Source: Halorhabdus sp. BNX81 (lineage in GTDB: Archaea > Halobacteriota > Halobacteria > Halobacteriales > Haloarculaceae). From it: 64,000 nt of DNA. Positions 12,754 through 35,163 of this stretch are shown piece by piece. The notes beneath the pieces were generated by a model, which saw only the letters and a list, made by a program, of their open reading frames with translations, did not search any database and was not told the DNA's origin. The stretch is taken from the NCBI RefSeq assembly GCF_029229925.1, contig NZ_CP107254.1, positions 1,240,001 to 1,304,000 on the forward strand, given 5' to 3'. Position 1 is the first letter of the stretch, and every line of letters begins with the position of its first letter. The position numbers and the translations under genes are program-made.

Positions 12754-12936
12754 ATGGGGATCGAACAGTTGTCGTGTCCGGCGTGTGGGGCGACATTCGA
12801 AATGGGGTTGCCCAGGGATGTGACCGTCCAGTCCGTCACGACGGAGGATCGCGAGGAACCCGACGACGACCGCGTGAAAGTTCGGCCCAACGCGTGTCCC
12901 AACGGCCACGAGTGTTACGTCATGTTCCGGTTCTAG
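12754..12936 (+). CDS. Small zinc-finger protein (60 aa)
   Basis: Contains a CPACG knuckle (C8, C11) and a second half CPNGHEC (C48, H51, C53), so a single Zn site is likely. Haloarchaea encode many such small CPxCG proteins, mostly of unknown function. The ATG at 12754 was chosen as the first Met before the zinc motif; a much longer frame from 12475 is antisense to brp. The last codons and stop are tandemly repeated immediately downstream. Confidence 0.75.
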   Translation: MGIEQLSCPACGATFEMGLPRDVTVQSVTTEDREEPDDDRVKVRPNACPNGHECYVMFRF

Positions 12937-12964
12937 ACGGCCGTCATGTTCCGGCTCTAGACGG
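12919..12964. repeat. Tandem duplication of the zinc-finger gene's 3' end
   Basis: A 22-nt unit containing the last four codons, the TAG stop and 5 further nt (12919-12940) recurs at 12943-12964 with one substitution. The period is 24 nt, so the frame is kept. The junction is a perfect 10-bp palindrome (12936-12945). Same general design as at dnaK and icd. Confidence 0.75.
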
Positions 12965-18957: not shown

Positions 18958-21330
18958 ATGAATGCATCCGTATCTGATACGATACGCGTCCTCTGCGTGG
19001 ATGACGAGCCCGACGTTCTTGCGCTGACGGCCACGTTCCTCGAACGCGAGAATCCCGACTTCGTCGTCGAGACGGCAACGAGCGCGGATGCGGGGCGTGA
19101 ACGCCTCGCGGACGGCACTTTCGATTGTGTCGTGTCCGATTATGAGATGCCCGGAGCAAACGGGATCGAATTTCTCGAAACGGTCCGTGAGGGCCGGCCC
19201 GATCTCCCGTTTATCCTGTTCACGGGGCGGGGATCCGAGGAGATCGCGAGCGACGCCATCTCGGCCGGCGTCACCGATTATCTCCAGAAGAGCGGTGGCT
19301 CCGAACAGTACACAGTGCTGGCAAACCGGATCGAAAACGCGGTCGAGCAGGCCCGGTCACGGCGGTTGCTCGAACGCAGCCAACGGCGGCTTCGGGAAGT
19401 CATCGATGCGTTGCCCCATCTGCTGTACATCGTCGACGAAACCGAGACGTATTTGCTGGCCAATCAGGCGCTGGCTGACTTCCACGGGACGACGGTCGAG
19501 GCAATCGAAGGAGCACGCGTCCCCGAGATCATCGGCGAGCCGGCCGCCGAGCAGTTTCGAACCCATCTGACGGACGTCTTGAACTCATCCGACCCAATAT
19601 ACGTCCCCGAAGTCGAACTCACTGTCTCCGAGGGGGAGACACACGTCTTCGAATCGCGTCTGTTCTCCCACGAACTCGCTGGAACGGACACGCAGGCGGC
19701 TCTCGGGCTCGCGGTCGATATTTCCGACCACATCGACCGGGAGCGGCAACTCCAAGAGACGAACGTCCTGCTTTCGACGCTGTTCGATACGCTCCCGGTC
19801 GGTGTGCTGGCCGAGACCGAATCGGGAACGGTACTTTCGGTCAACCAGCGCCTGCTCGATCTGTTTGCCGTTACCGGTTCGCCGTCGGATATCGTCGGGA
19901 CGGACAGCCAGCAACTCAAACGGGAGATACGCGGGAAACTTGCCGATCCGGATCGATTGCCGGATCGGACCGACGACCCGACTATGACGCCTGCACCGGA
20001 GGCTGCCCGGCAACTCGACCTTGCGGACGGCAGCACCTTCGAACGGAGCTACCGCCCGGTCGACCTTCCGGACGGGATGGGGCATCTCTGGGTCTATCGC
20101 GACGTGACCGAACACACCGAACGCAAAGCGGAGTTGGGCACGATCGTGGATCGCCTCGAAAACCTGCACGACGCAACCAGAGACCTCATCCGGGCTGAAG
20201 ACCGGGAAACGGTCGCGAGGCTCGTGGCCGACTCGGTGCGTTCGATTCTCGATCATCCGAGCAACGTGGTTCGGCTCCGTGACGGTGCTGTTCTCCGACC
20301 GGTCGCCGTGACCACCGGAGCGAAGGCGGATCTCGGTGACCGACCGTCCTACGCGATCGGCGAGGGGTTTCCCGGAGAGGTGTATGAAACGGGCGAACAC
20401 CGACTCGTCGAGGATTTCGAGGCGTGCGAACGCGACGTCGATAACGGCCCACATCGGTCCGCATTGTATCTCCCGATCGGCGATCACGGGACGCTCTCGA
20501 TCGGCGACGACAGTCCGGAGACGTTCGACACACTCGATCGGACGCTCGCGACCGTCCTTGCCAACAATGCGGCGACTGTCCTCGACCGGTTAGCCGGCGA
20601 GCGGACGCTCAGACGTCAAAACAAACGGCTCGCGGAGTTTGGACGCGTCGTGGGCCACGATCTTCGAAACCCGCTCGAAGTGGCTCGAACGCGCTGTCGA
20701 CTCGCACGCGAGGACCACGATTTCGACCACTTAGAGGCTGTCGAGCGGGCGCATGAACGCATGGAGACGTTGATCGATGACCTCTTTGTGTTAGCCCGAA
20801 ACGGAGAGATGCCATCTGACCAGGATTGGCTCGAATTCGGCGCACTTGCAAACGACTGTTGGGCGACTGTCAGTACGGGAGCTGCCACGTTCGTCAACGA
20901 AGCCGACGACCGGATTCGTGCCGACGAGGGTCGCCTCCGCGAACTGCTCGAAAACCTGTTCCGGAACGCCGTGGAACACAGTTCCACGAGCCCTGACTCG
21001 CAAGCTCGTCAGAACGCAGTCGAGCATCGCTCGACGAGTCCTCGTTCGCAAGCTCCGGAGGACGCTGTCGAGCACGGGGGCGAGACGGTCCAAGTCCGCC
21101 TGGAAACGACAGCCGACGGCTTCGTCGTCGCCGACGACGGCCCGGGGATCCCGGCCGGCGATCGCGACCGCGTCTTCGAGGTCGGCTATTCGACCACGGA
21201 GGACGGCACCGGGTTCGGCCTCAGCATCGTCTCACAGGTGGCTGATTCCCACGGCTGGGACGTGACGGTCTCCGAGAGCACACATGGCGGCGCGCGATTC
21301 GAGTTCACGGGCGTCGAACTCGAGCAGTAG
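18958..21330 (+). CDS. Hybrid receiver-PAS-PAS-GAF histidine kinase with repeat-expanded N-box
   Basis: 790-aa cytosolic sensor kinase. Receiver domain (8-125; D15, D16, phospho-acceptor D61, T89, K111), two PAS-like domains (about 140-265 and 270-395), GAF (about 405-545), HisKA with VVGHDLRNPLEVA, and HATPase_c (about 650-785; DDGPGIP, GTGFGLSIV). In the N-box, residues 670-701 form two 16-residue repeats (NAVEHxSTSPxSQA), followed by a third NAVEH-like core at 702-706. ATG 18958 was preferred because a TATA-like box (18922-18929) overlaps the longer starts. The stimulus and target are unknown. Confidence 0.88.
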   Translation: MNASVSDTIRVLCVDDEPDVLALTATFLERENPDFVVETATSADAGRERLADGTFDCVVSDYEMPGANGIEFLETVREGRPDLPFILFTGRGSEEIASDAISAGVTDYLQKSGGSEQYTVLANRIENAVEQARSRRLLERSQRRLREVIDALPHLLYIVDETETYLLANQALADFHGTTVEAIEGARVPEIIGEPAAEQFRTHLTDVLNSSDPIYVPEVELTVSEGETHVFESRLFSHELAGTDTQAALGLAVDISDHIDRERQLQETNVLLSTLFDTLPVGVLAETESGTVLSVNQRLLDLFAVTGSPSDIVGTDSQQLKREIRGKLADPDRLPDRTDDPTMTPAPEAARQLDLADGSTFERSYRPVDLPDGMGHLWVYRDVTEHTERKAELGTIVDRLENLHDATRDLIRAEDRETVARLVADSVRSILDHPSNVVRLRDGAVLRPVAVTTGAKADLGDRPSYAIGEGFPGEVYETGEHRLVEDFEACERDVDNGPHRSALYLPIGDHGTLSIGDDSPETFDTLDRTLATVLANNAATVLDRLAGERTLRRQNKRLAEFGRVVGHDLRNPLEVARTRCRLAREDHDFDHLEAVERAHERMETLIDDLFVLARNGEMPSDQDWLEFGALANDCWATVSTGAATFVNEADDRIRADEGRLRELLENLFRNAVEHSSTSPDSQARQNAVEHRSTSPRSQAPEDAVEHGGETVQVRLETTADGFVVADDGPGIPAGDRDRVFEVGYSTTEDGTGFGLSIVSQVADSHGWDVTVSESTHGGARFEFTGVELEQ
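20965..21075. repeat. Two in-frame 48-bp tandem repeats plus third core, inside the kinase N-box
   Basis: Units 20965-21012 and 21013-21060, then a third copy of the 15-bp core at 21061-21075. Each unit carries a 3-nt-loop hairpin (stems 20970-20977/20981-20988 and 21019-21025/21029-21035) and a second hairpin whose loop contains TCGCAAGCT (stems 20993-20997/21008-21012 and 21038-21043/21058-21063). The gene stays open because the unit is a multiple of three. Confidence 0.85.
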
Positions 21331-33633: not shown

Positions 33634-35163
33634 TCAGTAGAGCTCTCTGAATAGTGCGAGGAGATCGCCGACGCCGACGGCCCCGTCATCGTTGAAGTCA
33701 TAGGCGTGTGGGTTCGTCCGGACCGCCTCGGTATCGCGGTTGTTCAGGAGCCACCGTACGTCGCTGATGTCGGTCTCACCGTCGCCGGTGACATCCTCGA
33801 TCCGGCCGTCGTTATCGGGATCTCGCCGCAGGAACTGCTTCACCGTATCGCCCATGTACCCGTCGCCGGTCTGGAGGTCCCAGTCGGCGGGTCGGTCGGT
33901 GACGTACTCCGGAATCGAACCGCCTGTGTATGGCGACCAGTCTTCTTCGTCGGGGACATCGAACCCACGCGTGAACATGTTGGGGTCCCAGAGCACGTCG
34001 AACACCCACGCGGTCGAATGCACCGGGCGCGTCGAGAGCCACTCGGTCACGTGGTGGCCGAAATCCGGATCGTGCTCCGCCCAGTCCGCGCCAGCTGCCG
34101 TTTCCTCGTTGACGCCGCCGCCCGCGGCCGGGTCCGCGTCGTAATCGAACCCCCACTCGGTCATGAAGACCGGCGCGACCTCCCAGGCGGGTGTCTCGTC
34201 GTCGTAGGGAACGTCTCCGCCGCCGTTGTTGACCGGCGTGACGAAGTCATCGTAGTCTCCAGGTGTCGTCGGTCCGTGTCCCGGATAGAGGTGGAGTGTA
34301 TAGCCGAGGTTCTCCCCGTTGAACTCCTCGATCACCGCGCCAAAGGTCATCTGTGACCACCGCGGTGACCCGACGAGCACGAGATTCTCTGTGTACTCCC
34401 GAACGGTGTCGACCCACGGCTGGGCTGTGGCTTTCCACTCACCCCAGAAGTCCACTAACTCCTGGCCAGAGACGCCGTAGTTCGGGTTGCCCTGGGGTTC
34501 ATTGTACACTTCGAAGATGACGTGATCCATCTCACCGTACCGCTGGGCGACGATGTCCCAGAACATCGTCACTTCCTGGCTGAGCCCGTCATCCGTCCAC
34601 GGAATGTCGCGATGCCGGTGGTAGTCGATGATCGCGTACGCCCCGTTTGCCGCGCACTGTTGGACGGCCGGATCGAGATGGTTCTCGAGATAGTCCTGCA
34701 GCTGAGATTCGTCGAAGGCTGGCGGTTCCGGTCCCGCACCGGCTTCGTGTTCGCCGATGTCGACCGGTTGGACCGGCAGTCGGACGACGTCGGCGTGCCA
34801 GCCCTGGCTACTGTCCGTCGCGAGATCGATAGTCTGTGTGGCGTCTTTCCCACGTACCGGCGCGGTCACGTCGACCCGCTTGGGATCGGCAATGTTGACG
34901 CCGTGGAGTTCGACAGTGTCCCCGTCAGGCGTCTCCATCAGATTCCCGTTCCGTCGGAGCGGCGGGAGCGTATGCATATGGGAATCGGCTGCGACATTCC
35001 CTATCAGCCCCCCGCTCGCGACGACAGCGCCGGTACCGGCCGCGGCCTGTAAGAAGCGTCGGCGTGATGTCCCTGAACGGGTGGTTTCAGATCCGCTGGT
35101 TGGACCGTCGAACAATTGTGCGTCTTCGGTCATTCGATTACGTGTTTTTTCTTCGTCGATCAT
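33634..35163 (-). CDS. Secreted GH5 cellulase with dockerin-like C-terminal repeats
   Basis: 509 aa. Tat signal SRRRFLQAAAG (R34-R36) within residues 1-60, then a GH5 TIM barrel (about 70-430) with acid/base E222 in VYNEPQG and nucleophile E336 in FMTEWGFD, plus YHRHRDIPW and HLYPGH. The last ~65 residues carry two Ca-binding dockerin-type loops (DNDGRIEDVTGDGETD; DFNDDGAVGVGD). It should hydrolyse beta-1,4-glucans outside the cell. No separate carbohydrate-binding module. Preceded by a TATA-like box (about 35198-35205), supporting the first ATG. Confidence 0.9.
   Translation of the reverse strand: MIDEEKTRNRMTEDAQLFDGPTSGSETTRSGTSRRRFLQAAAGTGAVVASGGLIGNVAADSHMHTLPPLRRNGNLMETPDGDTVELHGVNIADPKRVDVTAPVRGKDATQTIDLATDSSQGWHADVVRLPVQPVDIGEHEAGAGPEPPAFDESQLQDYLENHLDPAVQQCAANGAYAIIDYHRHRDIPWTDDGLSQEVTMFWDIVAQRYGEMDHVIFEVYNEPQGNPNYGVSGQELVDFWGEWKATAQPWVDTVREYTENLVLVGSPRWSQMTFGAVIEEFNGENLGYTLHLYPGHGPTTPGDYDDFVTPVNNGGGDVPYDDETPAWEVAPVFMTEWGFDYDADPAAGGGVNEETAAGADWAEHDPDFGHHVTEWLSTRPVHSTAWVFDVLWDPNMFTRGFDVPDEEDWSPYTGGSIPEYVTDRPADWDLQTGDGYMGDTVKQFLRRDPDNDGRIEDVTGDGETDISDVRWLLNNRDTEAVRTNPHAYDFNDDGAVGVGDLLALFRELY

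Follow-up and report, generated by a model that had tools for sequence, protein, structure and literature searches.

The repeated segment at the ATP-binding N-box of a hybrid sensor histidine kinase, located in the window (the whole 64,000-nucleotide stretch of Halorhabdus sp. BNX81 DNA that was analysed), consists of 48-bp units that are probably copies of a mobile, protein-coding palindromic element with N-box-like targets, similar in kind to Rickettsia palindromic elements (RPE). As expected of that kind, the unit was found in several unrelated host genes, was inserted in frame and stop-free, and kept its hairpin pairing. It has the look of selfish DNA concealed within proteins, and not that of a switch for the kinase.

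The host kinase has the domain order Response_reg-PAS-PAS-GAF-HisKA-HATPase_c according to Pfam. Two units of 16 codons each, both in frame, occupy positions 20965-21060, and with the downstream DAVEH, directly followed by GGETV, they give three NAVEH-like cores (Table 1). The initial annotation had described exactly this arrangement at 20965-21075, and its two hairpins per unit were also recovered, as H1 and H2 were found in both units with the support of covariation, though with two inner pairs of H2 unformed in unit 2. The folding of the unit region was better than that of 199/200 shuffles (z -2.66). The two-unit repeat was absent from the Tandem Repeats Finder output for the window because the two units have diverged, and an Rfam search returned nothing above the gathering score of any family. 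Elsewhere in the window, a 24-bp tandem repeat (CGTCATGTTCCGGCTCTAGACGGC) is present in two near-perfect copies at 12918-12964.

Table 1 Features of the host kinase gene and its inserted units, in window positions
Feature	Position	Strand	Basis
Hybrid sensor histidine kinase gene, 800 aa	18928..21330	+	ORF; Pfam
Exact 59-bp match to the kinase at C1:2295504, the likely donor	20959..21017	+	Comparison within genome
Element unit 1, 48 bp, NAVEHSSTSPDSQARQ	20965..21012	+	Sequence; covariance model match; within 59-bp exact match
H1 of unit 1, GTGGAAC-aca-GTTCCAC	20971..20987	+	Sequence; covariation
H2 of unit 1, CTGAC-tcgcaagctc-GTCAG	20993..21012	+	Sequence; covariation
Element unit 2, 48 bp, NAVEHRSTSPRSQAPE	21013..21060	+	Sequence; covariance model match
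H1 of unit 2, GTCGAGC-atc-GCTCGAC	21019..21035	+	Sequence; covariation
H2 of unit 2, CCTC/GAGG, TCGCAAGCTC loop sequence as in unit 1	21040..21061	+	Sequence; covariation
DAVEH, the third core, as right border and re-created N-box-like target	21061..21075	+	Sequence; sister-species empty site L365

The genome of the strain is a single 2.83-Mb contig with 37 HATPase_c matches, in which a degenerate pattern detected the unit in three more kinases, at C1:2295504, at 2371184 (two units) and, more weakly, at 34986. The stretch shared with the kinase at C1:2295504 is an exact 59-bp match amid flanking 50-bp blocks of merely 26-60% identity, so the presence of unit 1 is not due to chance. The window kinase has an ortholog without the insert (LFRNAVSHGGETV) in the sister species G006 (L365, 73% identity) and is longer than it by exactly 96 bp, while the G006 kinase L043, the apparent counterpart of C1:2295504, has the unit. 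On the strength of the 59-bp identity and the empty G006 ortholog, the most likely order of events is that the kinase at C1:2295504 donated the copy to the window kinase once the two species had separated.

One explanation for such copying is that the unit is a non-autonomous element, of IS200/IS605 type or resembling PATEs or REPs, which a Y1 HuH transposase mobilises in trans. The two hairpins, the tiny size and the precise entry into a short target would suit it, and haloarchaeal 52-bp terminal-only PATEs may be mobile (PMC3119063). However, no Y1_Tnp match was found in the complete genome of the strain despite the recent copy, although Y1 transposases are present in G006 and others, and the covariance model of the unit matched none of 30 haloarchaeal TnpB loci (best E 0.24), by which an IS605/TnpB element was also rejected as the source. 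Three TnpB genes (C1:417939, 2758173 and 2809790) lie on the same chromosome that has no Y1 (TnpA) match. We regard this explanation as unlikely in general, and an IS200/605 or REP-type engine for the recent copying in this genome is not supported.

The initial annotation held that an expansion at the catalytic motif should disturb ATP-Mg binding and could tune or disable the kinase as a kind of phase-variable switch. The units do intervene between the N-box and the next strand, as it had stated, but the first N-box itself (LLENLFRNAVEH) is complete and unbroken, as the units come after the motif; the later cores therefore need not bind ATP-Mg. Residues N126, D182, G184, G186, G206, G208 and G210 (P0001 numbering), including the N-box Asn and the G-boxes, were invariant in an alignment of 37 kinases with 0-3 units, and the HisKA and ATP-binding motifs of the window kinase were intact by both Pfam and this alignment. 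In the AlphaFold2 model (mean pLDDT 84), both the helix of the N-box (113-133) and the strand after it (168-174) are predicted to be kept, and the insert is modelled mostly as a loop of low confidence (block pLDDT 47-57), apparently disordered. The intact motifs and the complete first N-box argue against disablement of the kinase and lend no support to a switch. A gain or loss of 48 bp never shifts the frame and nothing hints at phase variation, so the phase-variable reading of the repeats is not supported; a regulatory effect of the insert on the kinase is possible.

Other kinases with NAVEH-type inserts, for which the initial annotation had suggested a survey, were found in number, in the same genome and in other haloarchaea. 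With a covariance model built from 30 units and a threshold of E <= 1e-4, the 48-bp unit was detected in 181/292 sampled haloarchaeal genomes and in 55/77 genera. An exact pattern searched against a collection of 84,980 species gave 55 stretches, all 55 from Halobacteria. Eight haloarchaeal plasmid records have the unit, in genes annotated as sensor kinases, CbiE and MBL hydrolases. One exact pattern gave no match in viral contigs, and a viral source of the element was set aside on that search. Most copies are located at the N-box of histidine kinases as 1 to 7 tandem units, with 134, 27, 7, 2, 1 and 1 contiguous arrays of 1, 2, 3, 4, 5 and 7 units, respectively. Unit number, which the initial annotation had proposed to compare between strains, does vary between species (0 in the sister ortholog vs 2 here, and 1-7 in arrays elsewhere); the collection contains one genome per species, and the differences seen are at the species level. 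A second class of N-box insert (STSNRTQSDDAVEHG, STSSRPGADDAVEHG), which starts like the 48-bp unit and differs in its second half, was observed in L042, L044, L111, L140, L315 and others, and a longer N-box insert variant also exists (e.g. ADGASTVEPSGVDTSDDAVEH).

The expansion is not private to the catalytic motif, contrary to the first reading. By Pfam, the non-kinase hosts were VLRF1, Cgi121, Rce1-like, DUF7089, OCD, GluRS, TP_methylase and Lactamase_B plus Rhodanese proteins. The unit is read in the same frame throughout in the glutamyl-tRNA synthetase (GluRS) of Natrialba and in the cobalt-precorrin methyltransferase CbiE (1 or 3 units); it occurs at two positions in an MBL-rhodanese protein of Haloarcula and others, and further hosts include MutL, response-regulator tails, a VLRF1-like protein, an Rce1-like protease and an OCD-family enzyme (the names MutL, CbiE and response-regulator tail were given on the basis of sequence). 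Two unit loci (L200 and L310) could be matched to no gene, and the element may therefore also occur in further contexts.

Relatives supplied precise empty sites for these insertions. The filled GluRS site reads CCC AAC GCC + 48 bp + GAG GAG in G189 and G285 and is empty in the congeners G317, G080, G253 and G318; in G210 the alignment is broken at the same place. The CbiE site is filled in G277 and empty in G216, G221, G312 and G313. In the MBL-rhodanese protein, site 1 is filled in L173, L201 and L190 and empty in L197 and L199, and the reverse holds for site 2, each species group supplying the empty site for the insert of the other. At site 2, H1 is GCGGAAC/GTTCCGC and its first arm is similar to the native codons. 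The inserts measure 48 bp or a multiple and are edged by (D/N/Y)A-x-E codons, about NACGCNGNNGA. ACGCC-like direct repeats flank them, and, compared with MITEs, they have two separate hairpins rather than one terminal-inverted-repeat pair. All assignable insertions lie in forward frame 0, with no frame-breaking copy among them. An NACGCCG target alone would give that frame at 72/182 sites in the window, so the single frame of the copies needs peptide selection or a phase-locked target; probably, tolerance of the peptide filters out copies in other frames.

The nucleotide constraint on the unit was evaluated in 199 distinct units chosen by protein sequence alone. None of them had a stop codon in the unit frame, and the unit is thus presumably translated. 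Two base pairs that join synonymous third positions were paired in 183/199 (p 1e-33) and 190/199 units (p 5e-39), Fisher p-values that count related units as independent. The codon GAA is accompanied by T, and GAG by C, at the third position two codons downstream (85, 8, 5, 98; p 5e-39), one H2 pair was formed in 192/199 units against 99.7 expected, and 18 native cores without a unit, a small control, had no such third-position pairing pattern. In H2, changes at the variable residue x are matched by changes at the last two residues ahead of the next core so that the stem persists, x being tied to the pairing codons (e.g. GAC with CGTCAG and CCT with CAGGAG). The first alignment had also suggested a pseudoknot, with a GAGC/GCTC stem that overlaps H2; this was discarded when its pairing in the 199 units equalled the expectation under independence. 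The covariation at synonymous positions and the joint changes of x and the stem indicate that nucleotide pairing, via selection or hairpin-templated mutation, shapes the unit peptide; the covariation could reflect templated mutation instead of selection.

These data also bear on the explanation of the unit as a functional kinase module, in which selection maintains a regulatory loop close to the ATP site and unit number tunes activity. It would account for the strong enrichment of units at the N-box, the length of the arrays, which reach 7 contiguous units, and the position of the insert adjoining the ATP site. Nevertheless, the unit is also present in many proteins without an N-box, the orthologous kinase of the sister species does without it, its variable positions track base pairing and not protein chemistry, and the low confidence of the modelled loop suggests disorder. 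We consider a kinase module distinctly improbable.

For the preferred reading, a mobile coding palindrome, we propose the following course. The unit encodes a hydrophilic stretch of about 16 residues, (N/D)AVEHGSTSPxSQAxx, and its single-stranded DNA or RNA can fold into two hairpins. It inserts precisely at N-box-like DNA, roughly NACGCNGNNGA, read as (D/N)-A-x-E; as the unit is 16 codons without a stop, the host frame is kept and the protein would gain a loop. Each insertion regenerates the target on both sides, from which tandem arrays can follow. The N-box is the putative main reservoir, since many paralogous kinases share a near-identical landing sequence. Copying may mostly take the form of recombination or gene conversion in which NAVEH-like sequences pair up, a route for which, set against an undescribed enzyme, we see slightly better than even prospects; jumps into unrelated genes, GluRS and CbiE among them, would be rarer and driven by microhomology. 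Gene conversion between N-boxes would agree with the N-box-like targets as well as with the 59-bp identity. It is described as efficient in Haloferax volcanii (PMC11276520). That the peptide is soluble and comes to lie in loops would explain why the element is tolerated. Mobility is suggested here by comparisons between species.

Alternatively, a single-stranded copy of an undescribed mobile system might find N-box-like DNA through pairing of the 3' arm of its H1 with the target, in which case H1 would be formed between a target-derived and an element-derived arm. This is a long shot; if true, the unit would be a 48-nt self-guided protein-coding parasite with sensor kinases as its reservoir.

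Ribosome bypass (byp-like) or splicing, by which the unit would be skipped or removed to restore the native protein, could draw on the strong hairpins and on the duplicated flanking codons as take-off and landing sites. Skipping would not require frame, stop-free or codon constraint, yet the 199 protein-defined units are stop-free, every empty-site comparison preserves the frame, no frame-breaking copy was seen, and codon positions 1 and 2 of the unit are conserved more than position 3, which makes this explanation highly improbable. Replication slippage of the native N-box, local to each kinase, may well lengthen arrays, as may unequal crossing-over, given the near-identical tandem units in L051 and L121, but as an origin it is contradicted by the copies in non-kinase genes, whose unit DNA is shared with the kinases, and by the STSPxSQA segment, which is not N-box-derived, leaving it a negligible prospect.

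Taken as a mobile coding palindrome, the unit extends a phenomenon, translated selfish DNA inside host proteins, that has so far been known chiefly from Rickettsia, Wolbachia and one methanogen. It now includes a whole archaeal class, with a 48-bp unit that prefers the gene region of the sensor-kinase ATP site and has exact empty sites in relatives. NAVEHGSTSPxSQA repeats in haloarchaeal proteins should accordingly be read as insertions, not as domain features. As some haloarchaea serve as genetic models, how coding palindromes move and what they cost could be tested there directly. A literature search, with subscription papers mostly outside it, found no earlier report of the element in haloarchaea.

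Non-coding repeats with two hairpins were also observed. In the genome of the strain they are intergenic (C1:2005584-2005635, 281255-281306, 1690922, 280984 and 962567; L071, L072, L073, L075 and L076), and L071 and L072 share much flanking sequence. The haloarchaeal genome G041 (81% complete) gave 21 pattern matches of a non-coding version (L288, L294, L299, L301 and L303-L308) with the pattern CCACCG..GAGCAAGC..CGAGC.CCCGCTCGCA.GCTCGCGGG.ACCTCG. Both sets share with the unit the H1-GAGC-H2 layout and the TCGC..GCTC loop, but they are intergenic and have no N-box-like edges; common descent with the coding unit is only suggested, at model E values of 1e-7 to 2e-3.

Among known systems, haloarchaeal PATEs are IS605 terminal-only remnants of TnpB/TnpA transposons, about 52 bp long, too short for a transposase and without target duplication (PMC3119063). 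The unit resembles them as a hairpin element of about that size in haloarchaea; unlike them, it matches no TnpB locus, and the genome of the strain has no Y1 transposase. PARCEL repeats, which encode 25-aa amphipathic segments in bacteria and eukaryotes and had no representative in the archaeal genomes then available, are likewise palindromic, translated, tandem coding DNA spread among genes (PMC2996958). Palindromic repetitive DNA elements with coding potential have been noted in Methanocaldococcus jannaschii (as cited in PMC2996958 and PMC2229807); these are also in-frame palindromic coding insertions in an archaeon, a likeness at the level of description, and their host is a methanogen and not a haloarchaeon. 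The closest parallel in kind is RPE (Ogata et al. 2000), a palindrome of ~105-150 bp described in frame in many unrelated, often conserved genes (PMC2229807, PMC10969869). Like RPE, the haloarchaeal unit is a short, tolerated palindrome in frame, with related copies between genes. It is not the Rickettsia RPE itself, being 48 bp long instead of about 105-150 bp and found by exact pattern in Halobacteria only, and it has two hairpins where RPE has one long stem-loop; its N-box-like target and tandem arrays are not described for RPE in the available text of PMC2229807 and PMC10969869. The kind is thus already known, and the haloarchaeal element is a separate member of it, distinguished by its size, its layout of two hairpins, its target and the group of its hosts.
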